Shown in pieces: positions 3,935 to 28,667 of a stretch of DNA of 29,132 nucleotides (its first letter is position 1; each line of letters opens with the position of its first letter). The notes beneath the pieces were generated by a model. The model worked only from the letters and a program-made list of their open reading frames with translations, had not been told where the DNA came from and did no database searches. A program made the position numbers and the translations under genes. This DNA is from a virus. The stretch is from positions 1-29,132 of the IMG/VR virus record IMGVR_UViG_3300030109_001976; one strand, 5' to 3'.

Positions 3935-3952
3935 GTTATAACCAGTTATAAC
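3935..3952 (+). promoter_or_regulatory. Operator-like 18-bp element, copy 1
   Basis: The sequence is GTTATAACCAGTTATAAC: two copies of the self-complementary octamer GTTATAAC whose starts are 10 bp apart, so both sit on the same DNA face. This copy lies five bases upstream of the -35 of the promoter for the 158-aa gene. A degenerate copy with the same 10-bp spacing (3961-3978) sits inside that promoter. Confidence 0.7.
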
Positions 3953-3957
3953 AAAAG

Positions 3958-3985
3958 TTGCGTGTAACTTCTTATATGTTACAAT
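3958..3985 (+). promoter_or_regulatory. Sigma70-like early promoter P1
   Basis: The -35 is TTGCGT (3958-3963), the spacer is 16 bases, and the -10 is TACAAT (3980-3985). Transcription would start near 3992. The leader then carries a small hairpin, CCCGCTC / GAG(A)CGGG (3995-4014), before the AGGAAAAG ribosome-binding site (4022-4029). An inverted repeat GTAAC...GTTAC spans 3964-3982 across the spacer and -10. Confidence 0.55.
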
Positions 3986-4033
3986 GTACGGAATCCCGCT
4001 CATGTCGAGACGGGTATAAACAGGAAAAGTACT

Positions 4034-4510
4034 ATGGCTACAACATACAACAAAGCACAACTAGCAGAATTGACAGCGTTTGCAAAGGGTGAGGAAAAGC
4101 AGAGCAACCAAATTGCAAAGCTCAATAAGCTCGGTTTTGAATTTGCGGATTTCAGAAAATCGCACGAAGATTGCAACGTTGATAATTTCGCCGTGTGTCG
4201 CGAGGCGATCATTGCTGGGCTACCAGCAAAATCCCGGTCTCTCATATGCATGGCATCGCGTGAAGTACCAGCGCACCAACGCGAGGCGCGACGTACAGCG
4301 CAACAATCTATAGGTGCTTACATGGGGCGTGCTTATAAGAGCTTGAAAAAGCTCCAGTCTGACAGCGAGGGCGAGGCCGTGGAAGTAACAGAGCTTTACA
4401 AAATCCAGCAAGTACTGATCGGCCTAGTAAAACGCGCCGGGAAAGATAATTCTGGAGTAAGTAAAAAGGCGATTGCTGGCATGAACGCGGCTCTAGAAAT
4501 GCTCGGTTAA
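4034..4510 (+). CDS. Uncharacterised single-gene early protein, 158 aa
   Basis: I do not recognise this protein. It has 158 residues, is rich in Lys, Ala and Glu, appears fully helical with no membrane segment, and contains the basic stretches REVPAHQREARRTAQQ and YMGRAYKSLKKLQ. Three Cys (48, 55 and 72) are too scattered to suggest a metal site. It starts at the ATG at 4034 after AGGAAAAG. It is the first gene of the rightward block, has its own promoter with operator-like elements, and is closed by a strong terminator, so it forms a one-gene transcript. That position is typical of immediate-early regulators or host-takeover proteins. A DNA-binding or regulatory role is inference only. Confidence 0.75.
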   Translation: MATTYNKAQLAELTAFAKGEEKQSNQIAKLNKLGFEFADFRKSHEDCNVDNFAVCREAIIAGLPAKSRSLICMASREVPAHQREARRTAQQSIGAYMGRAYKSLKKLQSDSEGEAVEVTELYKIQQVLIGLVKRAGKDNSGVSKKAIAGMNAALEMLG

Positions 4511-4532
4511 TCTCAAACTACATAGGACAATC

Positions 4533-4556
4533 AAGGGGGCTTCGGCTCCCTTTTTT
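4533..4556 (+). terminator. Rho-independent terminator after the 158-aa gene
   Basis: An eight-pair stem (AAGGGGGC with GCTCCCTT, one G-T pair) closes a TTCG tetraloop at 4541-4544, and the run of six T begins at 4551. It is a textbook intrinsic terminator 22 bases past the stop codon and isolates the 158-aa gene from the downstream region. Confidence 0.9.
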
Positions 4557-4612
4557 GTGTCCAAATTTTCTATCCATGTAACATCTCACCAGATCTAATT
4601 TACCCAACCCAG

Positions 4613-4621
4613 TTATCCACA
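4613..4621 (+). promoter_or_regulatory. Perfect DnaA box
   Basis: TTATCCACA matches the strong R1-type DnaA box exactly. It lies in the repeat-rich non-coding region rather than inside a gene, which raises the chance that it is functional. Confidence 0.5.
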
Positions 4622-4643
4622 GGCAGCAGATATTTTTTATCTT

Positions 4644-4721
4644 TGATAACAGTTCCCTTGTTGCGCTGCGCCTCTGGTTTGCGTGGCCCCTGATAACAGT
4701 TCCCCCGTTGCGTTGCGCCTC
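4644..4721 (+). repeat. 31-bp imperfect direct repeat
   Basis: The two copies, 4644-4674 and 4691-4721, are 47 bp apart, start to start. Both begin TGATAACAGTTCCC and end TGCGCCTC, with 28 of 31 positions identical. The second copy ends three bases before the 18-bp operator-like element. The first 13 bases after the initial T (GATAACAGTTCCC) recur at 10454 and 20333. Confidence 0.85.
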
Positions 4722-4724
4722 ATT

Positions 4725-4742
4725 GTTATAACCAGTTATAAC
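4725..4742 (+). promoter_or_regulatory. Operator-like 18-bp element, copy 2
   Basis: A perfect copy of GTTATAACCAGTTATAAC inside the origin-like region. It is the only perfect copy that is not close to a gene start. It lies between the 31-bp repeats and the first iteron-like AATGTTCC. Confidence 0.7.
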
Positions 4743-4760
4743 AAATTGCTTTGTAACCAA

Positions 4761-4790
4761 TGTTCCCTTTTTTAATTGCAAAAAGGAACA
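4761..4790. repeat. Inverted repeat TGTTCCCTTTTT / AAAAAGGAACA
   Basis: TGTTCCCTTTTTT is followed after a short AATTGC loop by AAAAAGGAACA, forming a hairpin of about ten pairs. It contains two oppositely oriented copies of the TGTTCC / GGAACA core that recurs across 4759-5059, so it may be an iteron pair rather than a terminator. Confidence 0.55.
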
Positions 4791-4989
4791 AATGAAGCGT
4801 GGTTTCTGATGGTATCTGATGGTATGTAATATATGTTTGGTAGTAGGATAGAAGCATATTTTTATAATGTTCCCTTTTTCAAAAAAATTATGAAGCAAGA
4901 TAAATTTAAGGGGGCTTCTTTGCGTATTGTTCCCTTTACACACCCTTTACGTCCCAACCCAAGCGGTCCTTCATAATTTTCAAAAAACC

Positions 4990-5059
4990 GGAACATTAGA
5001 ACATTACTTTATTTTCAAGCACTTGCCAGCCTACCTAACGGAACATTACGGAACATTTC
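4990..5059 (+). repeat. Iteron-like GGAACATT repeats
   Basis: GGAACATTA (4990), GAACATTAC (4999), GGAACATTAC (5040) and GGAACATTTC (5050) form two tandem pairs. They are the reverse complement of the AATGTTCC copies at 4759 and 4866. Short tandem repeats of this kind commonly bind phage or plasmid replication initiators. Confidence 0.6.
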
Positions 5060-5104
5060 ATTAGAAGTCATTACATGGGACTATTAACTATTTTATGGTA
5101 ACAC

Positions 5105-5134
5105 TTGACATTACCTACTAGATGTGAGAAGATA
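5105..5134 (+). promoter_or_regulatory. Possible sigma70-like promoter with consensus -35
   Basis: A perfect -35 TTGACA (5105-5110) is followed 18 bases later by a weak -10, AAGATA (5129-5134). It points toward the membrane-protein and AAA/VWA genes. The poor -10 keeps confidence low; an activator site or a shifted -10 is possible. Confidence 0.35.
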
Positions 5135-5206
5135 CATGATGGCTAGCGTACCTCACGGTTTACGCTTGTCTGTAACAGGTTATATCCTTTTATAGCATAT
5201 GCGTAT

Positions 5207-5236
5207 TTGTTATAACTGGTTATAACATTTTATAAA
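5207..5236 (+). promoter_or_regulatory. Promoter P2 overlapped by operator-like element, copy 3
   Basis: The 18-bp element is present in reverse orientation (GTTATAACTGGTTATAAC, 5209-5226). It fills the space between a candidate -35 TTGTTA (5207-5212) and -10 TATAAA (5231-5236), with an 18-base spacer. A protein bound here would block the promoter directly. The next gene starts at 5256. A weaker copy with 10-bp spacing (TCTGTAAC AG GTTATATC) lies at 5169-5186. Confidence 0.55.
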
Positions 5237-5255
5237 CTAAGAAGTAGGAGATCGT

Positions 5256-5426
5256 ATGCAGATTATTGCACTGTTTGTAGGTGGCATATTGTTCGGAGCT
5301 TCGACGATTGGCATATGTGTTATTGGTCCCACGGCTACGGCTTGGACCTTACCGCTTGTATCAACGCTCGGATGTTTCGCGGTATCGCTTGGGCTTATCT
5401 TGATGGGTTCCATCAAATCACTGTAG
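5256..5426 (+). CDS. Small two-helix membrane protein, 56 aa
   Basis: This short gene starts at the ATG at 5256, five bases after AGGAG (5246-5250), and ends with TAG at 5424-5426. The product begins MQIIALFVGGILFGASTIG and ends LGLILMGSIKSL. It has two strongly hydrophobic segments, about residues 3-24 and 31-52, joined by a short Pro/Thr loop (GPTATAWTLP), with a Lys near the C-terminus. It is therefore a predicted inner-membrane hairpin. It is not followed by an endolysin and lies in the early region, so a holin role is unlikely; early membrane proteins of this kind may act in superinfection exclusion or host takeover. The next gene follows after 9 bases. I do not recognise the family. Confidence 0.7.
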   Translation: MQIIALFVGGILFGASTIGICVIGPTATAWTLPLVSTLGCFAVSLGLILMGSIKSL

Positions 5427-5435
5427 GAGAAGTTA

Positions 5436-5708
5436 ATGGAAAGAAGAGAATACGAAGGTTGGTATAACTACGAAACTTGGCAGTGTGCGCTCTGGTTAGA
5501 CAATGACAGAGATCTCTATCATGCAGTTAAGTTCTGCTCTGATGAAGAGGAGTTACGAGAGCTTGTTCACGACCATCTATATGAAGATATGAAGAGTGCC
5601 GCGAGTCTAGCTACTGACATCGTGAACGCTTGGATGACCGAAGTTAATTACAACGAGATCTGGAACAGATACGAAGAGGCGAATGCCAAGGAGAAAGATG
5701 ATGAATGA
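5436..5708 (+). CDS. NYETW-motif phage protein, 90 aa
   Basis: A 90-residue acidic protein that starts MERREYEGWYNYETWQCALW and continues LDNDRDLYHAV. The WYNYETW...ALWLDND signature is shared by a family of small phage and mobile-element proteins of unknown function (DUF7249-like, from memory). The rest is helical and charged (DEEELRELVHDHLYEDMKSAASL) and the tail is AKEKDDE. It starts at ATG 5436, after a GGAGA site that begins within the previous stop codon region. Its end overlaps the start of the DUF3150-like gene (ATGAATGA), so it is co-translated with the AAA/VWA trio and may belong to that unit. Confidence 0.75.
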   Translation: MERREYEGWYNYETWQCALWLDNDRDLYHAVKFCSDEEELRELVHDHLYEDMKSAASLATDIVNAWMTEVNYNEIWNRYEEANAKEKDDE

Positions 5709-6660
5709 TGTTATAACCAGTTATAACAATGAGAAGCCCGACCTCAGTGATATGCCATCACTGTCGAAGTCGGCTAGGTTGGTGTTGCTCAACATTAGTT
5801 GTTGGACCGCACGTAAGAAGAACAAAAAAGAGTCTGAGAAAGTGGCGATTGCTAACGGTGCTGACCCCAAAGCGGTGTCAGTCAACAACGGCCTGATGGC
5901 TACATCGGTCGAGTTGGATCAGTTGCAAAAGCACGTTGGGTTATGGCGTAAAGCACACACACGTTTGACCGCTCCGTGGATGGGTACGGGTTATGCTTTC
6001 CTACCCAATGCCGCTTGGATGATGAAGTACCAGAAAGAGATGAGTGTGTTCTCTAATAAGTATGACTCGTTACTAGCATCGTTCCTGAGTAAGTACGAGC
6101 AGGATCGCATTACTTCGATGGCTGCGTTGGGTAACATGGCTGATATGTCGAACTACCCTGACCTTCTGACCGTAAGAAGAAAGTTCAAGTGGTCACTGAC
6201 ATACCATCCTATATCTGAGGTAGATACAGGTGACTCGTTCCTAGATGATCTCGAAGACGATCAACGTGCATACATGGAAGAACAGCTGGGCGATACCATG
6301 CGAGGGCAACACGAGAAGTTCTTACATGAAGCAATGGACGGTATGGTCAACAGTATCTGGGCTAGGTTGTACGACAATCTTACAAGACTGAGTTCTAATC
6401 TTAGGATTCAAGAGGACGGTACACCCGGTAGGATACACGAGTCGGTGTTCAATACGACTGTCGAGTTGGTGAATATGATGCGTGAGTTCAATGTATCAGG
6501 TAATCCTCAGTTGGATGCCATGCGTCAAGAGTTGGAGTCAGCATTAGCTGGCGTAAGTGTGGAAGGTATCAAGCACAGCAGTACGCTGCGTGAAGTTACC
6601 AAGGGCAAGGTTGATTCTGTCAAAAGCAGGATCGAAGCATTGCCGAGTTTGGATCTGTAG
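5701..6660 (+). CDS. DUF3150-like protein, partner of AAA/VWA pair
   Basis: The product has 319 residues when started at the ATG at 5701, which follows AAGGAG (5688-5693) by seven bases and overlaps the previous stop. An in-frame ATG at 5698 is also possible. The N-terminal part has SARLVLLNISCWTARKKNKK, followed by a region rich in Trp and Lys (LWRKAHTRLTAPWMGTGYAFLP), as in DUF3150 proteins. The rest is helical and probably coiled-coil (YDSLLASFLSKYEQDR, MREFNVSGNPQLDAMRQELE). DUF3150 genes are typically found beside a CobS/MoxR-like ATPase and a VWA protein in phages and integrative elements, exactly the order seen here. Their function is not known. The start region contains an operator-like element that encodes VITSYN. 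Confidence 0.7.
   Translation: MNDVITSYNNEKPDLSDMPSLSKSARLVLLNISCWTARKKNKKESEKVAIANGADPKAVSVNNGLMATSVELDQLQKHVGLWRKAHTRLTAPWMGTGYAFLPNAAWMMKYQKEMSVFSNKYDSLLASFLSKYEQDRITSMAALGNMADMSNYPDLLTVRRKFKWSLTYHPISEVDTGDSFLDDLEDDQRAYMEEQLGDTMRGQHEKFLHEAMDGMVNSIWARLYDNLTRLSSNLRIQEDGTPGRIHESVFNTTVELVNMMREFNVSGNPQLDAMRQELESALAGVSVEGIKHSSTLREVTKGKVDSVKSRIEALPSLDL
5710..5727 (+). promoter_or_regulatory. Operator-like 18-bp element, copy 4 (inside a gene start)
   Basis: A perfect GTTATAACCAGTTATAAC begins at codon 4 of the DUF3150-like gene and is read as VITSYN. It is the only perfect copy within coding sequence. Binding here could stop transcription entering the trio, or the true start could be a later ATG such as 5752. 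Confidence 0.65.
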
Positions 6661-6697
6661 TAACAATTAACATAAACAACAAAGTAAGGAGATTGCC

Positions 6698-7792
6698 ATG
6701 CTAGGGAATATGCATAGCTTAGGTTTGGATCAGTGTTCGGAGTTAATCAAAGCGATAGGCAGTGAGGTCACTGTTCTACTGCGCGGTGACATGGGTAACG
6801 GTAAGACATCTGTAGCGAAGACGTTACAGGAAGACTTGCCAGAACATATTCTGTGTATGCTCGACTGTAGTAGTTTGGATCTGGGTGATCTGGCGATACC
6901 CAACCTCTCGCAAGCAGAGACAGAGAAGTATGTGTCGTTTGCTGTCAACGAGGCGTTGGGCCTACATCTGGGTAAGCCGGTGATCGTGTGTCTCGATGAG
7001 TTCGGTAAAGCGAATCCAGCAGTGAAGACTGCGTTATGTCGGTTCATGTTAGAACGGCAGTTCGGTACGTTGTCTCTACATCCTGACTCGATTGTGTTTG
7101 CTACCACGAACAAGGGTGCTGAAGGTGTGGGTGACTTGTTACTACCACACCAGCGTAACAGGATTGCGATTGTGGATGTACGCAAGTCTACGGCTGAAGA
7201 GTGGGTGATATGGGGTATCAACAACGGTATCGATCACTCGCTACTAGGTTGGGTCAAACAGAATCCGCAAGTGTTACAGTCATTCGAGGATGTCGAGAAT
7301 CCTGATGACAACATACATATCTTCCATCCCAAGGCACAACGTGAGTCGTTTGTCACACCAAGAGCGTTGGAGTTAGCGAGTAAGATATTACACCGACGAG
7401 CTTTGTTCGATGGCGATACGTTGAAAGCAGCATTGGCTGGTGTGATCGGTGCTCCATCGGCCCAAGACTTCTACTCGTTTCTTACACTGGCTAATAAGTT
7501 GCCGTCCTTGGAGTCGATCAAAGCCGATCCCAATACAGCGACATTGCCTGATACTCCAGCGACCAAGTGTATGACTATCTATCGTGGGCTGGCTGCTATC
7601 GAGCGAGATTGGGTGGATGCATGGATGACGTATCTATTGCGATTCGATCCAGAAGCACAGGCATTGTTTGTGAAAGGTGCGCTGAACGAGAAGTATCCAA
7701 AGCGTAAGATGATGATGCACAACAGCAAGTTCTGTGATTGGGCTGTAGACAACGGTTGGATCAACGCACAAGCAGTAAAGAAGGGGGTATAA
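6698..7792 (+). CDS. AAA+ ATPase, MoxR/CobS-like
   Basis: A 364-residue AAA+ ATPase of the MoxR/CobS kind, a family that remodels partner complexes together with VWA-domain proteins. Walker A is GDMGNGKTS (residues 30-38), Walker B is VIVCLDE (95-101), sensor 1 is ATTN with Asn138, candidate arginine fingers are Arg153/Arg155 in HQRNR, and sensor 2 is TPRAL with Arg222. The roughly 140 C-terminal residues are helical and not recognised. The start at ATG 6698 follows AAGGAG (6686-6691) with six bases between. The next gene begins one base after the stop. No CobN subunit or cobalamin gene is near, so a cobaltochelatase role is unlikely. Confidence 0.9.
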   Translation: MLGNMHSLGLDQCSELIKAIGSEVTVLLRGDMGNGKTSVAKTLQEDLPEHILCMLDCSSLDLGDLAIPNLSQAETEKYVSFAVNEALGLHLGKPVIVCLDEFGKANPAVKTALCRFMLERQFGTLSLHPDSIVFATTNKGAEGVGDLLLPHQRNRIAIVDVRKSTAEEWVIWGINNGIDHSLLGWVKQNPQVLQSFEDVENPDDNIHIFHPKAQRESFVTPRALELASKILHRRALFDGDTLKAALAGVIGAPSAQDFYSFLTLANKLPSLESIKADPNTATLPDTPATKCMTIYRGLAAIERDWVDAWMTYLLRFDPEAQALFVKGALNEKYPKRKMMMHNSKFCDWAVDNGWINAQAVKKGV

Positions 7793-7793
7793 C

Positions 7794-9029
7794 GTGTTAG
7801 CTATACATCAAGAGTTGACCATCGATCAACGGCTGACCAAAGCATACATCGATGTTATGAATCACCCACGCTACATGGCGTTGGGTCCGTTGTTGTTGCA
7901 TGGCAAGCGCACGATTGTTGACGATCCTAGTGTCACTGCACGTACCAATGGCAGAGACATCGAGTATGGTAAACAGTTTATCGAGTCGCTAGATGACTAC
8001 GAGCTACGGTTTCTCATACTACATGAGGTCTATCACAAGTTGTTCCGACACCTTACTACGTGGAAGAACTTACACGATAAGAACTTCCGTCTGGCAAACC
8101 AAGCGTGTGACTACAACATCAACGGCAAGCTGGTAACAGAGAACAAGGATGACGGCTTCGCTACGATGCCACGCACTCCAGACGGTAAGATGATCGGCTT
8201 GTATGATGAGCGGTTCAGAGCAGGTTCCGATTGGATGCCTTCTGACATTATCTTCGAGATGCTAGAAGAAGATGAAGAGAATGGCGATCAGCAGGGTAAT
8301 CCATCTGGTGGTGGTGGTGGTCAACCACTGGACGAACACGATTGGGAAGGTGCGGTTGACATCTCAGAAGAGGAGGCCAAAGAGATCGAAGCCGAAATCG
8401 AAGAGGCGATACGGCAGGGTGCGATGATGGCTAAGACTTGTGGTGGGGGCGAGAATGCCAACATCGATGGGCTACTCAAACCCCAAGTTAACTGGCGTGA
8501 TGTGTTACGTGAGTTTGTAGAGACAACGTGTTCTGGTAACGACTACTCGACATGGAAGCGACCTAACCGACGATATATCGGGGCTAACGTGTACTTGCCT
8601 AGTGGTATCAGCGAGACAGCCGAAGAGCTACTCATTGCTTGTGATATGTCGGGTTCGATAGGTCCGAAAGAACGTCGAGTGTTTCTATCTGAAGTAGTCA
8701 GTGTATGCGAGGTGATGAAACCGCAACGAGTTCGGATTGTCTATTGGGGTTCTATTGTACCGAAAGAAGAAGTGTACGAGGCCCACGAGATATCCGAGAT
8801 CATGCAACGTACCCAGCCGGTTGAGGGCTACGGTACAAACATCGACACTGTGACAGCTTATATGCAAGCTAACAATGTCCGACCCACGGCAGCTATCATA
8901 CTTACTGATGGTTGCTTTACTGGTTGGGGGCAATGGCACTGTCCAGTTCTATGGGCGTTGGTTGACAACGAGGACGATATGCCTGACTGCGGTAAGGTTG
9001 TGCGTATCAAAGCGAGGTATCTGACATGA
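7794..9029 (+). CDS. Metallopeptidase-like / VWA protein (DUF2201-type)
   Basis: A 411-residue protein with two modules. The N-terminal half carries the zincin motif HEVYH (residues 77-81), followed by the conserved-looking ANQACDYNIN (101-110), like the putative metallopeptidase domain DUF2201_N. A flexible Gly-rich, acidic linker covers about residues 156-210. The C-terminal VWA domain has a complete metal-ion-dependent adhesion site: DMSGS (284-288), Thr348 in GYGTN and Asp372 in LTDG. VWA proteins of this type act as adaptors for MoxR-like ATPases, and the ATPase gene ends one base upstream. The start is GTG at 7794, preceded by AAGGGGG. The intact HExxH suggests real protease activity, though inactive relatives exist. 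Confidence 0.88.
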   Translation: MLAIHQELTIDQRLTKAYIDVMNHPRYMALGPLLLHGKRTIVDDPSVTARTNGRDIEYGKQFIESLDDYELRFLILHEVYHKLFRHLTTWKNLHDKNFRLANQACDYNINGKLVTENKDDGFATMPRTPDGKMIGLYDERFRAGSDWMPSDIIFEMLEEDEENGDQQGNPSGGGGGQPLDEHDWEGAVDISEEEAKEIEAEIEEAIRQGAMMAKTCGGGENANIDGLLKPQVNWRDVLREFVETTCSGNDYSTWKRPNRRYIGANVYLPSGISETAEELLIACDMSGSIGPKERRVFLSEVVSVCEVMKPQRVRIVYWGSIVPKEEVYEAHEISEIMQRTQPVEGYGTNIDTVTAYMQANNVRPTAAIILTDGCFTGWGQWHCPVLWALVDNEDDMPDCGKVVRIKARYLT

Positions 9030-9232
9030 GAATTGACAGATTCAACATAGAGAAGCATAAGCATTTGCTTGTGCGTAGCGTGATGCGAAGAGAGGGTGGA
9101 GACCCAGTGCAGGAAGCTGTACTCGACGCAGCGTGTAAGGGGCAAACCCTATTTGATTTGAAAGAATGGAATAGGTTATTGCGTGGGTTAGATACGTCCG
9201 ACCTGACGGTTGGCGATCTAGTTGGTATATAA
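9026..9232 (+). CDS. Small hypothetical protein, 68 aa, coupled to the VWA gene
   Basis: The start overlaps the VWA gene stop as ATGA, so the gene is translationally coupled to the trio. The 68 residues begin MRIDRFNIEKHKHLLVRSVM and end DLTVGDLVGI. The protein is mixed charge, probably helical, with no membrane segment or motif I recognise. An operator-like element and a new promoter follow immediately, so this is the last gene of the trio transcript. It could be a small regulatory partner of the AAA/VWA complex, but that is only position-based. Confidence 0.65.
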   Translation: MRIDRFNIEKHKHLLVRSVMRREGGDPVQEAVLDAACKGQTLFDLKEWNRLLRGLDTSDLTVGDLVGI

Positions 9233-9235
9233 CAA

Positions 9236-9253
9236 GTTATAACCAGTTATAAC
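9236..9253 (+). promoter_or_regulatory. Operator-like 18-bp element, copy 5 (with a third half-site)
   Basis: A perfect GTTATAACCAGTTATAAC. A third, weaker unit TATATAAC (9226-9233) lies exactly 10 bp upstream, giving three units in helical phase. The element ends one base before the -35 of the next promoter. Confidence 0.7.
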
Positions 9254-9298: not shown

Positions 9299-10204
9299 AT
9301 GAACAGTAGTGATTTTAGAAAAGAAGTAAAAGATCTAACACCGATAGAAGTGTGCGACGAGAGGTTCCCATCCACTATGGATGATTTCATCGCAGCACTG
9401 AAACCGAAGCTTGATGGGCCTTTCGGTAACAGGGATGTGCAGTTCGGTGTAAGTGGAGACGGCTATCGCCCTCACAAAGTGTGGGTGTATGACAAAGTAG
9501 AGCACTACGCCATGGGTTACATTCGAGTGAGCGAAGAGCAAGGCTATAATGAGTATGACCGCTCGAAGAGTAGGCCGTTATACATTGTGGGGTCTAGGCT
9601 TATCACGAATGGTAAGGGGTACGACCATAGGCATGAGAACAAGAGTAGTAATCTTAAAGCGGCTGTGGGTAAGGCGTTACGTGGTTTACATAACTATAGT
9701 TTGTCGGACATGGCTCAAGTCTGGCTTATTGATTTTAAAGGCAGGGTGTCTGAAGAGGCTCATGGCCTTAGATCAAAACAAAAAGAAGTGATTAGTGAGA
9801 TCCTTGGAACGCCGATGAGTTCTGTTAACAGTTCGATGTTCTATCAACGTCCGTTAGCTAAACTGGCTTACCTGATGATCGACCAAATAAAAGAGATGGA
9901 CTCAGAGCTTGCAAATAAGCTGTTACGTGTTCAGCAGTATGATGCCGAAGTAGAAGAGGCGAATATGTACAAACAAAAGAGTGCGTTTGTCTTTGTTACG
10001 CCGACTGAGTATCGATGTTTGTTCAACGTAACTGAAAGCCCTTGGGGTTCTGCTAGTACGCTGGCAGAAAACACACGCATCTTTTCAGCAACGGATAAGC
10101 CCGCGTTTCTTAGTAAGCTAGCAGTGCTTGCAATGTTGAATCCATTTGACTACGAAGATGGCATTGGTATGAAGGTGGACGATAACATCTTTTTCATTCA
10201 CTAA
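9299..10204 (+). CDS. Uncharacterised protein, 301 aa
   Basis: I do not recognise this protein. It begins MNSSDFRKEVKDLTPIEVCD and looks like a soluble alpha/beta protein. Residues from about 52 (SGDGYRPHKVWVYD) to 100 (LYIVGSRLITNGKG) look beta-rich; the centre is helical (IDQIKEMDSELANKLLRVQQ). The C-terminal segment FLSKLAVLAMLNPFDYEDGI...FFIH resembles the C-terminus of the 83-aa protein encoded directly downstream, which suggests duplication of a small domain. It has its own promoter P3 and an operator-like site. The stop overlaps the next start as TAATG. The function is unknown. Confidence 0.75.
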   Translation: MNSSDFRKEVKDLTPIEVCDERFPSTMDDFIAALKPKLDGPFGNRDVQFGVSGDGYRPHKVWVYDKVEHYAMGYIRVSEEQGYNEYDRSKSRPLYIVGSRLITNGKGYDHRHENKSSNLKAAVGKALRGLHNYSLSDMAQVWLIDFKGRVSEEAHGLRSKQKEVISEILGTPMSSVNSSMFYQRPLAKLAYLMIDQIKEMDSELANKLLRVQQYDAEVEEANMYKQKSAFVFVTPTEYRCLFNVTESPWGSASTLAENTRIFSATDKPAFLSKLAVLAMLNPFDYEDGIGMKVDDNIFFIH

Positions 10205-17544: not shown

Positions 17545-17946
17545 ATGACTGATGCATTAGATGTATCAAAACTCACAAAAGTCTTTATTAAAATTAGAGA
17601 CGAAAGAAAACGAATCGCGGATGACTTTAACAAACGCGATGGAGAGCTTGCTGGAAAGCAAGACACAATTAAGAGTGCGCTGCTGAATCATCTGCAAGAG
17701 CAGAACATCGACAGCATAAAAACTGGCGAAGGCACGTTCTTTAGATCTACAAAGCAAAAGTATTGGACGAGTGATTGGTCCTCGATGTACGAATTCGTTA
17801 TAGAGAACCAAGTGCCTGATCTTTTGGAGAAACGACTGCATCAAACAAATATGAAGCAGTATCTGGAAGATAACCCTGACCTTCTGCCGAAAGGATTGAA
17901 TGTGGATTCTGAGTACACTTTGTCTATAAGGAAGCCAAAAAAATGA
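17545..17946 (+). CDS. Conserved phage replication-block protein, 133 aa
   Basis: The 133 residues start with a helical coiled-coil-like part (LTKVFIKIRDERKRIADDFN) and continue with SALLNHLQEQNIDSIKTGEG, KYWTSDWSSMYEFV and LLEKRLHQTNMKQYLE, ending with a short beta-like tail. I recognise the general pattern (helix pair, a DW-aromatic segment, LLEKRLHQTNMK) as a conserved protein found near SSB and nuclease genes in many phages; its biochemical role is unknown. A hairpin covers its ribosome-binding site, hinting at translational control. The stop overlaps the next start. Confidence 0.75.
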   Translation: MTDALDVSKLTKVFIKIRDERKRIADDFNKRDGELAGKQDTIKSALLNHLQEQNIDSIKTGEGTFFRSTKQKYWTSDWSSMYEFVIENQVPDLLEKRLHQTNMKQYLEDNPDLLPKGLNVDSEYTLSIRKPKK

Positions 17947-18218
17947 TGAAGGACGTAATCGAAGGACAACTGGTTCCAATAGAAGATGTCGCAAAACACT
18001 TCAAGGTGTCGCTATCTACGACTAGAAAGTGGGTTAGAGATGGTGACATACCAGAAAACCTGTACGTGAAGATCGGTAAGACCTATCGGTTTGATCTAGC
18101 AGGTATATCTAAGGCACTGCTCGCTAGATCAAGTGTGGATTCAACCACAGAAGAAGATACAGGGGTAACAGACTTGCTAGATAGTTGGGCCGAAGAAGAT
18201 TTAGATGGCGATGTATGA
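17943..18218 (+). CDS. MerR/excisionase-type helix-turn-helix protein, 91 aa
   Basis: A 91-residue protein. Residues 11-32 (VPIEDVAKHFKVSLSTTRKW) form a winged helix-turn-helix of the MerR/excisionase type, followed by a wing KIGKTYRFDLAGI. The C-terminal 30 residues are acidic and end GVTDLLDSWAEEDLDGDV, somewhat like the tail of the SSB two genes downstream. It could be a transcription regulator or a directionality-type DNA-binding protein. With no integrase in view, a regulator is more likely. It is the only clear HTH protein in the window and so a candidate to bind the 18-bp elements, which is inference. The start overlaps the previous stop and the stop overlaps the next start. Confidence 0.8.
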   Translation: MMKDVIEGQLVPIEDVAKHFKVSLSTTRKWVRDGDIPENLYVKIGKTYRFDLAGISKALLARSSVDSTTEEDTGVTDLLDSWAEEDLDGDV

Positions 18219-19598: not shown

Positions 19599-19620
19599 GT
19601 TTATCGAGGTATAACGAGTT

Positions 19621-22934: not shown

Positions 22935-25900
22935 CTAAAAGAATCCCTCTTCTTTCACTGCACGTTGGAAGTACGGTGACAGGGTTACGCCGTTGTGCAT
23001 ACGCACATTAGTTGTTCTCTCGTGAGCTTTCATAGAACGTTCTATAGTTTCGGGGGTAATCAGTAACTTAGGATCTATTTGCGCTGCTCTTGTTTCATTA
23101 AATTCAATCATTTGCCTAGCCGCTTTCTGTGCGCCTTCACGATCCCCGAACCGTTTTGCAAGGTAGTATTTTTTCAATAAGTCAGCACGACGATTTCTTG
23201 CCGCACTCTCCATACCTTTGGCTGCGGATACTTCTGCTTGTTCATTTGTGTATTCATTAGGGGGGAACCCTAATAGTTTAGCGAATATGTCACCACCTGT
23301 TATATCATCGTATATAACATCGCCACGCCGGGTGAGTATACCTTCATCACGAGGGTAACGTATTACAGCCTGATACGCATTACGCACGGCTCCCGGCATC
23401 ATATCTTCTAGCCCACGTTCTAACTCACCGTCACTTATTTTCTTCGCCCCGTCAACCATCCTGCTAAATATGCTCCATGCAGGACCGCCAAATAAATGGA
23501 AGAAAGTTTCTTCTGTGGAGGGGTTAGAATTAAAACGATCTGCTTCAACTAACAGGTCGGTTAGTTTAACTCTTTCAGATACATCAAGCCCCGTGATTTC
23601 AGATAACGCTCCTTTAAATAATGCGTCATTGTCCAGATACCTACGTACAAGAGTATCTGTATCCTCTTCATACTCTTCTGCAAACAGAGCATCGTACAGC
23701 ATGGACACTACGCCGTATAACGGTAGCCCTTGAACACCCGCGAAAAATAGAGCAGATAAGTGTGTGGCTGCAAGTTGTTTTGCTGCTTCACTTGTTACTG
23801 CCTTCGATACTCCCTGTTTACGTAATACATCAAGGAACTGCATTGCAGTTTTTCCCATTGTGTAGTACATCTGAATACCATAGTTCTTATACATCAAAGC
23901 CACACGGAGTGCGCCAGCACGAGCGAATCTAGGTCCAGTTTCTAAAGTAGCACCGCCGTTTATTTGTTGCGTCTCATACACAGCTTCTTCTGCTGCCTGC
24001 TGTCGTTGTTCGGCTGTAGCATTTTGCGATTTGTTGTTTGTAATCTTATCGAGGGCTAAATTATACGAAGCCACCAGAGCTACTTGCCTATTCATCATTT
24101 CTGCTTGGTGAAACATCAACGCTGATGCGCCTGTAGCCATGTCTCCTTTACTTAGTTCCCTTCCCGAAGAGTCCACACTAAGTGTGTCAGCTATAAACGA
24201 AGAGTTAAGATGTCCTCTCCTCGATGCTAGTTGCATGAGTGGGCGGAGCCTGTTTAGTTCTGCTTTTGTTTCAGCGGGTAAATCTAAATCCTTCCTGACA
24301 GAATATACCAAGTCACCAGTGTTGGAATCTCTAGTAAACGTGTAATAGTTATCAAGGCTCATTAGTGACGCACCAGAGTCTTGTATCGCCTCAAATTTAT
24401 TTTTAAGGCCACTCTTAGCAAACGCTTCTTTCATTGATGTCGGGCTAGCGTCGTCTCCAAACAGTGTTTTTGAAGCACGATTCGTCGGTGTCCCGGCGAA
24501 CAATTTAGTAGCATCTTTAATGGCAGTACCTGCTTTGCCGAATCCAAACTTACCCGCAAGCATGGGGTATGCGAATAGTGGTATCTGCGACAGGTTTACT
24601 AGTGCAGAAGATGTGTTAAATCCTATCGTCCAAAAGAAAGCCATACGGTTGGCTCGTTTAGCCCACTCATCTTTAGCTGGTTGTATTGCAAATCCTGCTC
24701 TATTACGAAGTTCGTCAGCAACAGCACTGGTAGCGGCTGGTGTACCTGCCAACTTCTCGTCTATTTCTCGCATTGTTTTAGATATTTCAGCACTGTTTTT
24801 TATGCGTTCTGTTTGCCGCGTTAGATCATAGGCTTTGGTTCTAGCAGCTTGTAGTGCTCCTACATCGTAACCCTCGGTTTTCTTTCTTCGTACTAGTGCT
24901 TTTGCAAAAGAAGACTCGGGTAATTCTTCTATAAACAACCTAGCCACTTGTTCTCTGGTCTTACTGTCTACGCCTTGTATGTTGAGCGTATTAAATAGTT
25001 GCGCTATGAATGAGCCTGATGGCGCGTTTTCATAAGATTTGGAATCACTATTGTCCCAAGGTTCTACTTTTAGTCCTTGATTAGCATAGTCCTCCATAGC
25101 CTGCACTCGATCCCCTGCGGTTTGATAAGCAAACACAGCGGGCTTATCCTTATCTCCTTTTGGATCTCGCACCGCTAACCAATAACTGCCAGATCGTGTC
25201 AGAGGAAAGTACGGCTCTATACTGGTGTTCTCTAGCATACGTGCTAGTAATTCGTTCTTTAGATTATTCTTAGCGCCATCTTCTATGTCCAACCCGTCGA
25301 TACGCCCACGCAACGCACCTAATAAGTCGTTATATCGATCTTTATAAAATTTACGTAAATTATCGTAAGTTTTTCTACCACCTTCTCCAAACTCTTGGCT
25401 TGTATATATTTTACGTAACTTCTTATACACCTCTATCTTGAGTGTTTTTTCTTTACCCTCTATAGTTTGATTCTTATATTTATTCTGCGCTTGTTGAGGA
25501 TTAAGCGCAGGGTCTACTTCATTGATTGTGCTTTCATAAACAAGTGTGTCTAATGCTTCGTTGGCTTTTTGCGATGCTTTATCAGCCCACCTAAACATAG
25601 GATCTAATATTTGGCGTGTTTCTTTTTCTGCTTCAGTCAAACGACCACGCTGCTTTTCTATTGCAGCCATTAGTTTCTTCGCGTCTGCTATACCTGTTGA
25701 TTCTGCTATATCTTGTATTGCTTGGTTAGGCAAAAGCCCTAATCCTACACTTTCTACTTTCTTACCCGCAGGTGTTTGCCTACCTAAAAACCCAGCTTTA
25801 AAGTCGCGTACTATTTTTTCTCTGCCCGCTTTTTCTGACAGCTTTGGTTTTTCTCGTTTTAGGTCTCTTCCTATAGCTGCTACGTCATCTTTTGTAGTCA

Positions 25901-28667
25901 TAGAAAGTAGTTTGGGGCCACCAGCAAAAGAAGGTGCAGGGGCTAATATGTCTTCTACCAAACGCTCTACTTCAGATTGTGCCGTCTTATCAAAGCGGAA
26001 TGGAGATATACCAATAAAGTCAGACAGCCATCTAAGAAACCGTTGCAGTGCGCTGTTTGGTTGACCTTTCGTATTGATCTTAGCAAGTTCTTTTTGAAAT
26101 TCAGGGTTACTGAACGTCTCTGCTACAAACTCTCGTATGTTTTTAAGACCGTATGGACTCTTACCAAGTTCCGCTTTTACATCTGTAAATATCTTATCTA
26201 GGTCTTTGACCGCTTTACTATTGGGCTGGTTTATTATCTTATCTACGGTCGCAGCGTGCGCTGTTTCATGTAACAAAGTATATGTAGTCAAACCGCCATC
26301 TTCGTTTAATATGACTCTGTTAACGCTAGGAGAAAACAAACCGATAGGTGTCTCTCCTTTCTTTCTCTTAGCTAACAACCGTTGCACGTTTTCTGCTTGT
26401 CGAGTATCAAGATCTGCTATTCGTTGTTGCGGATCTATACGTGCTACATCTACCTCTGTGTTACCAACAAACTCAGATAGTTTCTTTGCTATACGCTTAG
26501 TCTTTCGATCAACAGATCCGTCAGCTACATCCAGAAGTGCCTGTTTTAAGTTACCTGTACGTATTGTATCCACTATGTTTTGTGGTAACGGTGCATCAAT
26601 ATCTGTATTTGCCGTGACAGAAACAAAAGTAGGTTCTGATTTATCTAACTCTTGAAGCAGTTCCGTAGGAGTGATGTTAGGATTTTCTTCTAGCAGTTGT
26701 TGTTTTAGTGCGAGTCTCCTACTCCTCTTATCGGCTACGTCTTCTTTTGTTCTAGCCTGTTCTTCTACCGCTTTAACTTTAACCACAGCATCAGTTGGGC
26801 CTGTATCTGCTTCTAAAAACTTAGCTGCAAACCGCGTTATGCCTGCTGGACCTTTCTGTGTCGCTTTTTCAAATTCCTCTGCTAGCTTTGGATCTTCGCT
26901 TATTTTTTGAGCCACCTCTTTGGCTACTTTTGCACGAGGGGGTCTTCCTGTAGGTGTAACAAGTTCTAGCTGTTCTTCTGGAACCCTTTGTAGAAATCTA
27001 TTGATACTTGCTTTTGCTTTACCCGAAGTGTTTTTTCTAGCTGCATATTGTTCTAACTGCTGCACCTGATCGTCTTCTCGTAAGTTCTTATCCGCTAGTC
27101 TCTTACGGATCGGCGCACTAAGTGGTATGTCTAAACTATCTAACACTTCTTCCGTGGCTATTACAGAATCTACGTCTTCTTGAGACTCGGTAGCGATGCG
27201 CCTCTCGGCTGCTTCGGCCTCCTCTAAGTTTGCGCCTTCGGGTTGTTCTGCTCTTGCTAGTTCAGTTGGAAAAAGATCAGCTTGTTCTCTAGTAGCAATC
27301 TCTGCACGCTGCTGACCTAGCTGTGCTTCATCTGATACAGGTTGCTCTGTAATCTTCCGTTCTCTATCACGTTGGTTGATTCGAGCTAAAGCTTCTTCTC
27401 TTGTTAACGCCTGACCTTCAAAAGGTTTGGGGTCTAATGCATCCTCTAGTGGAGTTACAGCTAGTGTCTCTCCCGGTATGGTCTCGCCCTCTGGTGCAGG
27501 TAGTCCTTGTAGCTGCGGTCCTATTTTTTCTGGTTCTAGTCCCGGTAGAGGTAGTTGATCTGGTGATACAGCCGCTTCTTTTGAAGCGATATACTCCCCT
27601 ACTGTTAAATCCTCTGGTCTTTCTCTTGGGCCACTTACCTCTTCAAATAAATCCCCTTGTCTACCGGGTAATGCATCTGCTGGTAATGTAGGTTCAACAT
27701 CTTCAGCTACTTCTGGTGGTGGTCTATCGCCAATACGCCGACCTTTGGTAAACAAGTCAACTACACCCTGCACAATAGCACCTGCTCCTGCACCGTACCC
27801 TGCTGCGGGTGCTAAACCTTCTGCTAGATCTTGATCTATATTGTAACCACGCTCGATAGCGTTTTGAAAAAACTCAGCCGCTACTTCTTGACCGCCCTCT
27901 ACACCTGCCGTACCAACGGCTCTTCTTACTCGATCACCTAATCCCTCTATTGTCTCAGGACCAAACTTATCTACTAATTTATTAAGTGCAGGCAAGTCAG
28001 CCATTTTAACAAAACGTGCAATTGGCACGAGTTCAGTAAATCCAACTAGTGTACCTAGCAATGTAGCTTCGTTTCTTTCTTCTTCTGTAGCACCTTCTTC
28101 TCTTGCTCTTTCACTCGCTTCACCAGCACCTGCTGCACCTGCTAATGTTAAGCCTGTACCTACTGCGGCAATTCCTGCTCCTGCTATAGGGGCTGCACCT
28201 ACAGCGGCTACTGGTGCAGCAATTCCTGCTATTGATCCAAGTGCCTGACCTAGACCATAAGATATACTATCTTGATCGCCACCTTCGGGTGTAAGGTCTC
28301 CAAAGAAAGATTTAATCTTATCTCTAGCAGCTAGTTCTTCCTCTTCTTCTAATAAAGAAGCTAGTCCCAAACTAGCAATTTCACCTGTACCAACAACCCC
28401 TGCGCCGAATCCGCTAGTTAGGTTGCTGAGTATGCCAGACTCTTCTTTTGGAGCAGTATATAGTTGCGCTATGTTTTGTTGGGCTTGCAGATAATCTTGT
28501 TCTGCTTTACGTCTACGATCTGCAAAACTAGTAGGCGCACTACTAACACTACGGCTTGTTGCCCGTCGAGCATTTAGTATGTCAACAATATCTTGTTTTG
28601 TTGCGCCGGGAGGTACGTCTACTGTTTCAGAAGTACCATCTCTTAGAAATACAGTTCTAAGAGCCAT
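22935..28667 (-). CDS. Giant polyvalent / ejection-type virion protein with zincin motif, 1910 aa
   Basis: The start is ATG 28667 after AAGGTG, one base past the upstream stop. Parts in order: a short N-terminal beta-like domain (about 1-35); a Gly/Ala-rich hydrophobic stretch (about 144-182) that could insert in membranes; a Pro/Glu-rich linker (about 310-430); long helical regions; a zincin motif HETAH at 800-804 with a likely third ligand in REFVAETFSNPEF (Glu846 or Glu850); then helical domains with hydrophobic segments near 1340-1370 and 1639-1662. The C-terminal half resembles the large polyvalent protein (LPD38-like) family of phages. Such proteins are packed in the capsid and injected with DNA, and the metallopeptidase may process proteins or help cell-wall passage. 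The domain calls are by eye. Confidence 0.78.
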   Translation of the reverse strand: MALRTVFLRDGTSETVDVPPGATKQDIVDILNARRATSRSVSSAPTSFADRRRKAEQDYLQAQQNIAQLYTAPKEESGILSNLTSGFGAGVVGTGEIASLGLASLLEEEEELAARDKIKSFFGDLTPEGGDQDSISYGLGQALGSIAGIAAPVAAVGAAPIAGAGIAAVGTGLTLAGAAGAGEASERAREEGATEEERNEATLLGTLVGFTELVPIARFVKMADLPALNKLVDKFGPETIEGLGDRVRRAVGTAGVEGGQEVAAEFFQNAIERGYNIDQDLAEGLAPAAGYGAGAGAIVQGVVDLFTKGRRIGDRPPPEVAEDVEPTLPADALPGRQGDLFEEVSGPRERPEDLTVGEYIASKEAAVSPDQLPLPGLEPEKIGPQLQGLPAPEGETIPGETLAVTPLEDALDPKPFEGQALTREEALARINQRDRERKITEQPVSDEAQLGQQRAEIATREQADLFPTELARAEQPEGANLEEAEAAERRIATESQEDVDSVIATEEVLDSLDIPLSAPIRKRLADKNLREDDQVQQLEQYAARKNTSGKAKASINRFLQRVPEEQLELVTPTGRPPRAKVAKEVAQKISEDPKLAEEFEKATQKGPAGITRFAAKFLEADTGPTDAVVKVKAVEEQARTKEDVADKRSRRLALKQQLLEENPNITPTELLQELDKSEPTFVSVTANTDIDAPLPQNIVDTIRTGNLKQALLDVADGSVDRKTKRIAKKLSEFVGNTEVDVARIDPQQRIADLDTRQAENVQRLLAKRKKGETPIGLFSPSVNRVILNEDGGLTTYTLLHETAHAATVDKIINQPNSKAVKDLDKIFTDVKAELGKSPYGLKNIREFVAETFSNPEFQKELAKINTKGQPNSALQRFLRWLSDFIGISPFRFDKTAQSEVERLVEDILAPAPSFAGGPKLLSMTTKDDVAAIGRDLKREKPKLSEKAGREKIVRDFKAGFLGRQTPAGKKVESVGLGLLPNQAIQDIAESTGIADAKKLMAAIEKQRGRLTEAEKETRQILDPMFRWADKASQKANEALDTLVYESTINEVDPALNPQQAQNKYKNQTIEGKEKTLKIEVYKKLRKIYTSQEFGEGGRKTYDNLRKFYKDRYNDLLGALRGRIDGLDIEDGAKNNLKNELLARMLENTSIEPYFPLTRSGSYWLAVRDPKGDKDKPAVFAYQTAGDRVQAMEDYANQGLKVEPWDNSDSKSYENAPSGSFIAQLFNTLNIQGVDSKTREQVARLFIEELPESSFAKALVRRKKTEGYDVGALQAARTKAYDLTRQTERIKNSAEISKTMREIDEKLAGTPAATSAVADELRNRAGFAIQPAKDEWAKRANRMAFFWTIGFNTSSALVNLSQIPLFAYPMLAGKFGFGKAGTAIKDATKLFAGTPTNRASKTLFGDDASPTSMKEAFAKSGLKNKFEAIQDSGASLMSLDNYYTFTRDSNTGDLVYSVRKDLDLPAETKAELNRLRPLMQLASRRGHLNSSFIADTLSVDSSGRELSKGDMATGASALMFHQAEMMNRQVALVASYNLALDKITNNKSQNATAEQRQQAAEEAVYETQQINGGATLETGPRFARAGALRVALMYKNYGIQMYYTMGKTAMQFLDVLRKQGVSKAVTSEAAKQLAATHLSALFFAGVQGLPLYGVVSMLYDALFAEEYEEDTDTLVRRYLDNDALFKGALSEITGLDVSERVKLTDLLVEADRFNSNPSTEETFFHLFGGPAWSIFSRMVDGAKKISDGELERGLEDMMPGAVRNAYQAVIRYPRDEGILTRRGDVIYDDITGGDIFAKLLGFPPNEYTNEQAEVSAAKGMESAARNRRADLLKKYYLAKRFGDREGAQKAARQMIEFNETRAAQIDPKLLITPETIERSMKAHERTTNVRMHNGVTLSPYFQRAVKEEGFF

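Follow-up and report, generated by a model that had tools for sequence, protein, structure and literature searches.

In the viral record IMGVR_UViG_3300030109_001976, the whole of which (29,132 bp) was analysed and is called the window here, five exact copies of the 18-bp dyad GTTATAAC-NN-GTTATAAC lie in the early region, and these are probably the operators of an autoregulated, phage-encoded repressor that would be the product of the first early gene, geneA. The argument is built on sequence comparison, that is, on the sites themselves, their conservation, their synteny, the operator words of other lineages, and the covariation of these words with geneA in the lineages compared. Taken together, the sites and the covarying small protein suggest that this marine phage has a repressor of a family not described before, with operators to match. 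Literature searches, which missed most subscription papers and all preprints, found no description of such a motif system.

The five copies start at 3935, 4725, 5209, 5710, and 9236, exactly where a sequence-only reading of the window had placed them. At up to three mismatches, the window holds nine matches versus 0.17 expected, and none of the shuffled sequences reached nine, so that the claim of a repetition beyond chance is borne out. All ten occurrences of GTTATAAC fall within the five sites (expected, 0.56). Weaker in-phase units at 5179 (three mismatches), 5219 (two), and 9226 (two) are true extensions of sites C and E (Table 1), the last being the third unit already noticed ahead of the copy at 9236; at operator C, the weaker units at 5169, 5179, 5189, and 5229 keep a 10-bp register. 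Of three weaker copies proposed earlier, the one at 5169 (four mismatches) is in register with site C. The other two do not exceed chance: 3700 also has four mismatches, a level at which about three matches per 58.6 kb arise by chance, and is not significant by itself, and 3961 has more than five. The description of the element as phage-wide goes too far, its sites being limited to the early control region, and the statement that none occurs beyond 9.3 kb is nearly right, with one three-mismatch match at 19608. The record IMGVR_UViG_3300030202_000422 (58,619 bp), 99.4% identical to the entire window, has the same five copies and no further site at up to two mismatches outside the 5.3 kb that they span.

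The sites are dyads, neither asymmetric nor oriented with transcription, and the spacer of the copy at 5209 is reversed. What the regulator recognises is probably the dyad around the spacer, ATAAC-NN-GTTAT; the operators of relatives are single dyads with half-sites that are mostly not self-complementary. The phasing of octamers at 10 bp, which the sequence-only reading had pointed out, is present in the window and in the relatives L258 and L026 but is no general rule of the family.

Comparison with the strain IMGVR_UViG_3300030098_003655 (L023) reveals that none of the 80 octamer bases differs, whereas the noncoding DNA around the sites has diverged by 16% (p = 2e-6), a contrast that indicates selection on the sites. 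Of the ten spacer bases, by contrast with the octamers, four differ (p = 8e-5), and by this comparison the octamers are constrained and the two central bases free. In L023, operator A keeps its octamers with the spacer changed from CA to CG, operator B is identical, and operator D has its spacer changed from CA to AG; operator E is kept in both L023 and L024. A scan for the 18-mer with free spacer identified more than 12 viral contigs with two to six exact copies. The carriers examined belong to the phage family of the window (TerL 77–87% identical where covered), and their sites precede the first early gene, operon C, the DUF3150 gene, and the MoxR gene or fall in the noncoding stretch after the first of these; perfect copies are clustered likewise in G015 (four) and G016 (seven). 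The sites are thus neither randomly placed nor absent from relatives, the outcome named earlier as contrary to a common regulator: relatives keep the sites, and all five copies of the 58.6-kb genome fall within 5.3 kb. Single matches to the 18-mer in L029–L032, long contigs without similarity to this phage family, look like chance or coding matches, and the early region has no megablast match among phages.

In relatives without the 18-mer, a search was made for gapped palindromes of any sequence that recur within the locus. Relatives (TerL 49–92% identical) retain multi-copy palindromes in the corresponding places: in the noncoding region of about 0.7 kb and upstream of the first early gene and of the DUF3150, MoxR, and VWA genes. 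Several lineages each have a word of their own, such as GTTAGTG-N3-CACTAAC in L125 (eight copies), TTCGGGCA-NN-TGCCCGAA in L126 (ten), GTTAGGGA-N-TCCCTAAC in L131 (eight), GTATTA-NN-TAATAC in L148 (11), GTTACA-N3-TGTAAC in L150 (seven), TCTGACA-N-TGTCAGA in L161 (eight), GTACAA-NN-TTGTAC in L169 (seven), TACTGTC-N-GACAGTA in L188 (eight), and CTAACA-N-TGTTAG in L194 (ten); they are part of the set, and further lineages have others. Of 130 loci with a length of 5 kb or more, 18 contained repeated gapped palindromes in 3–11 copies, a fraction that is no estimate of prevalence, short or partial loci often stopping before the early region. In shuffled versions of the 130 loci the maximum multiplicity was 1 in 129 and 2 in the remaining one, and real bacterial stretches of 8 kb mostly gave 1 or 2, with a few repeat-rich exceptions. 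No multi-copy palindromes were present in the stretches read of HTVC027P, HTVC023P, 023Pt_psg01, and DSL-LC04. The Planktothrix phage Pag-Yong1 (L364, 20000–65014), a cyanophage and possible laboratory model, carries at least 18 copies of GGTTCAG-N-CTGAACC among early and late genes, including between late genes.

The best candidate for the binder, judged by covariation, is the product of geneA, the first gene past the TerS divergence. In the closer relatives its counterparts are all homologous and make up a single family. In L239, the operator TACCGGT-N5-ACCGGTA occupies places corresponding to those of GTTATAAC in L253, L260, and L261, and yet its MoxR and DUF3150 proteins are 88–89% and 73% identical to those of L253 and L260, and its TerS is 85% identical to that of L261. 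Between the geneA proteins of L239 and L261, the C-terminal 59 residues are 75% identical; the N-terminal approximately 150 residues are unalignable by BLAST. A profile comparison ties residues 96–234 of the L239 protein to the geneA family profile, and the replaced part would therefore be mainly the first 100–150 residues or so. Within the compared region it is geneA that differs, and TerS, the 143-residue gene, DUF3150, and MoxR remain similar. Replacement of the geneA N-terminus along with the operator is, as far as these alignments reach, what one would expect if a repressor had swapped a domain. L203 and L128, which have the operator TGTGTAT-N5-ATACACA in common and geneA proteins 93% identical, make up a third matching pair. 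The proposals that one phage-encoded regulator governs the early units, and that the 158-residue early protein might bind the sites, are thereby strengthened, the former also by synteny and by the lineage words.

The AlphaFold model of the window geneA protein is all helical (mean predicted local distance difference test score, 82.9), and in the models of two geneA proteins, which are helical, a compact N-terminal part is joined to C-terminal helices by a linker predicted with low confidence. We propose an N-terminal specificity part of about residues 1–112 and C-terminal helices at 120–157; the domain swap and the models agree with a reader, a linker, and a C-terminal part that would serve in oligomerisation. 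The protein has no significant match in Pfam, PHROGs, or PDB sequences, no Foldseek match at E below 0.001, and no tblastn match among phages. In L125, tandem geneA paralogues (8608–9129 and 9465–9989, reverse complement) are each followed by an operator.

It is conceivable, though unlikely, that the binder is another phage gene exchanged along with geneA. The contigs are fragmentary, more distant genes were compared only in part, and geneA is without a known DNA-binding fold; against this, geneA is the gene that differs among similar neighbours, and the other binder suggested earlier, the helix-turn-helix (HTH) protein encoded at 17943–18218, fails to track the operators. This HTH_17 protein is 75% identical in L043, which has a different operator, and 43–49% identical in L044 and L026, which have the operator of the window.

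The placement of operators within transcription units was analysed for 129 operators from 24 loci. An open start preceded by a ribosome-binding site (RBS) lies 15–29 bp downstream of 36% of them, versus 3% of random points. On the coding strand, 23 strong sigma70-type promoters are situated 40–80 bp upstream of the operator centre, versus 0–3 per 20-bp bin elsewhere, a concentration not seen on the other strand. In examples from relatives, a perfect TTGACA-N17-TATAAT, a leader of 45–75 nt, the operator, the RBS, and the ATG follow in that order; most relatives are fragments, and promoters and remote genes are comparable only in some. Among the window sites the order is clear at site C only, where TTGACA (5105) is followed by the operator array (5169–5236) and the ATG (5256); this promoter is conserved in L023, and relatives have TTGACA-N17-GATAAT at the same place. 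By eye, the leaders of L131, L246, L161, and others appear to contain an extra stem-loop between promoter and operator, near the likely transcription start, with a GGAATTCG- or GGACTTC-like loop.

We propose that a dimer or higher oligomer of the geneA protein would bind the 18-bp dyad directly, its N-terminal part reading the DNA and its C-terminal helices, joined by a flexible linker, oligomerising. From the operator position we infer repression, as opposed to activation, and a roadblock: since the family has many operators in the leader, downstream of a host sigma70-type promoter and ahead of the RBS, a bound protein would halt transcription there in the fashion of stoperators. Accumulated geneA protein would then shut off the early genes, i.e., geneA itself, operon C, the DUF3150-MoxR-VWA genes, and the gene of the 301-residue protein. 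As protein and operators change together across the family, each lineage would acquire a private specificity, the benefit of which might consist in exclusion of co-infecting relatives or in avoided cross-talk among them.

The sites might instead act as RNA, a hairpin of each palindrome before the RBS controlling translation or mRNA stability by itself or through an RNA-binding geneA protein, which seems quite unlikely. Many operators do occur in 5′ leaders, 15–30 bp ahead of start codons and downstream of promoters, and they can fold as hairpins, some of them stable (−14.7 and −10.6 kcal/mol). However, the window hairpin is weak with an AU-rich stem (−4.6 kcal/mol), one primary sequence is kept in all copies of a phage while loops vary freely, the three-unit 10-bp arrays of L258 and of window sites C and E do not have the form of hairpins, no gene follows closely after operator B, and operator D lies within a coding start. 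A role as DNA is favoured by the weak stem, by the phased arrays, by loops that are free to vary, and by copies located elsewhere than at gene starts.

Several observations weigh against a geneA repressor. Its binding of the operators is a prediction from sequence, and no DNA-binding fold is recognisable in the protein. Among phages with the GTTATAAC operator, geneA proteins are 12–28% identical between subgroups and not clearly nearer to each other than to those of L125 and L131, whose operators are different; the proteins that occupy the geneA slot in deeper lineages have no detectable homology, and their link with the operator is positional only. Operator A possibly precedes its promoter, and operator D falls on the initial codons of the gene of the 325-residue protein if this starts at the ATG immediately before the site. 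L239, L203, and L128 contain two interleaved operator sets, one of the TACCGGT or TGTGTAT type and one of ATAAC-NN-GTTAT, with one ATAAC-NN-GTTAT site of this group inside the −35/−10 spacer of the operon C promoter; the double sets may reflect the presence of two regulators or be left over from a previous specificity. Finally, L025 and L205, which have no detectable relation to the family, carry the same operator (four to eight ATAAC-NN-GTTAT sites each, many at gene starts) beside a different small protein: their early proteins of 140 and 146 residues are homologous to each other (39% identity over 57 residues) and not detectably to geneA.

The multi-copy occurrence of ATAAC-NN-GTTAT in L025 and L205, phages of other families, would also suit a host transcription factor exploited by phages, an explanation that we judge very improbable, given that operators are wholly different between phages whose neighbouring genes are 73–89% identical and that they change together with geneA. 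A scan of genome contigs with an RY spacer gave, among the matches listed (90 stretches), one site each, mostly in unrelated bacteria and archaea, and such single sites lend a host regulator no support. A Zur-like box, considered because Zur sites contain GTTATA and TATAAC arms, was ruled out as its arrangement differs. The operator of the N15 repressor, which may read TTATA-N6-TATAA, is a tentative lead on which a literature search gave no usable source.

The noncoding stretch 4511–5255 contains GGAAC/GTTCC nine times, versus 45 in the other 28.4 kb, and a DnaA box TTATCCACA at 4613 near which the GC skew turns; GAACATT repeats are concentrated in the same noncoding region of many relatives. 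By these features it is likely a replication origin. That the sites are iterons or a centromere serving replication or DNA partition instead of transcription is nevertheless most improbable, for although operators lie in and around this putative origin with its DnaA box and GGAAC repeats, and 10-bp phased arrays resemble iterons, about one third of operators are fixed 15–30 bp before gene starts, they are spread over 5–10 kb with one at most transcription units, and the copies of Pag-Yong1 extend across late genes.

Table 1. Operators and neighbouring features in the window.
Feature	Position	Strand	Remarks
Operator A	3935..3952	none	GTTATAAC-CA-GTTATAAC; exact match; upstream of 158-residue early gene
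geneA, first early protein, 158 residues	4034..4510	+	Proposed operator-binding repressor
Operator B	4725..4742	none	Exact match; noncoding region behind geneA
Putative promoter of operon C	5105..5133	+	TTGACA, 17-bp spacer, GAAGAT
Operator C	5169..5236	none	Perfect copy 5209–5226 plus weaker units; operon C leader
Predicted membrane protein, 56 residues	5256..5426	+	First operon C gene in this strain; read from sequence
DUF7249 protein, 90 residues	5436..5708	+	Pfam PF23907
325-residue protein, DUF3150 homologue	5683..6660	+	Proposed controlled gene
Operator D	5710..5727	none	Exact match
MoxR-type AAA ATPase	6698..7792	+	phrog_1297
phrog_1314 protein, called VWA	7794..9029	+	PHROG match
Operator E	9226..9253	none	Perfect copy 9236–9253, in-phase unit 9226 ahead of it
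301-residue protein	9299..10204	+	Downstream of operator E

The 325-residue protein is 25–43% identical to its homologues in relatives, of which that of L246 carries Pfam PF11348. The VWA label of the phrog_1314 protein is an assumption, guided in part by Pag-Yong1, which has a VWA-like gene in the equivalent neighbourhood. The 301-residue protein has no Pfam or PHROG match. Farther downstream, 19623–19712 matches the Rfam int-alpA RNA (RF02996; 37.1 bits versus a gathering score of 35.8) directly upstream of a primase-like gene, adjoining the weak site at 19608, and 22935–28667 encodes a 1910-residue protein whose C-terminal half matches DarB-like antirestriction and related large phage proteins. 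Except for the excisionase-like HTH protein (17943–18218), a PHROG search with 20 proteins of the window found no integrase or plasmid maintenance gene, the open reading frames of the 58.6-kb relative having been scanned only in part.

Private repressor-operator specificities are classically a trait of temperate phages, whose immunity groups they determine, and here they would occur in a widespread phage family that includes Pag-Yong1 and in which no integrase has been found so far. A bolder and more tentative possibility is that the early genes of a large family of aquatic phages, apparently non-integrating, are under the control of a new repressor family whose helical fold has not been described, and that repeated swaps of its N-terminal reader create private operator languages, amounting to immunity specificity for lytic phages. 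If this were true, many natural protein-operator pairs of a new DNA-binding family, their specificity being known, could make a recognition code solvable, and one could test directly if repression serves lytic phages to keep out co-infecting relatives. The sites also supply promoter and leader maps for uncultured phages.

Among known systems, the stoperators of mycobacteriophage L5 and other cluster A phages stop transcription between promoter and gene, and their consensus differs among related phages (PMC5712189). Similarly, one site is present here in multiple dispersed intergenic copies per genome (five in the window, 3–11 in relatives), lying in the phage family between promoter and gene, which in the window is clear for C only. 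In contrast to the asymmetric, transcription-oriented stoperators, the sites of the window are dyads and those of the family are near-perfect dyads of 13–19 bp, often just ahead of start codons; the proposed regulator lacks a DNA-binding fold that can be recognised, and there is no integrase among the proteins scanned. The CI and Cro repressors of lambdoid phages also employ dyad operators, and they combine an N-terminal DNA reader, a linker, and an oligomerising C-terminal part, with modular exchange changing specificity. The dyads, the proposed layout of geneA, and its modular exchange resemble this, whereas geneA has no match to a helix-turn-helix family and its operators are distributed over 5–10 kb at successive transcription units, not at one switch. 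Phage P1 C1 likewise is one repressor with many operators scattered over the genome, as is proposed here for geneA, but P1 is temperate and its operators are asymmetric 17-mers. Anti-CRISPR-associated (Aca) autoregulators are small phage proteins that act at promoter-proximal palindromes to repress the early operon that encodes them; they possess helix-turn-helix motifs and act on one operon, whereas in the window one word is placed at several operons.

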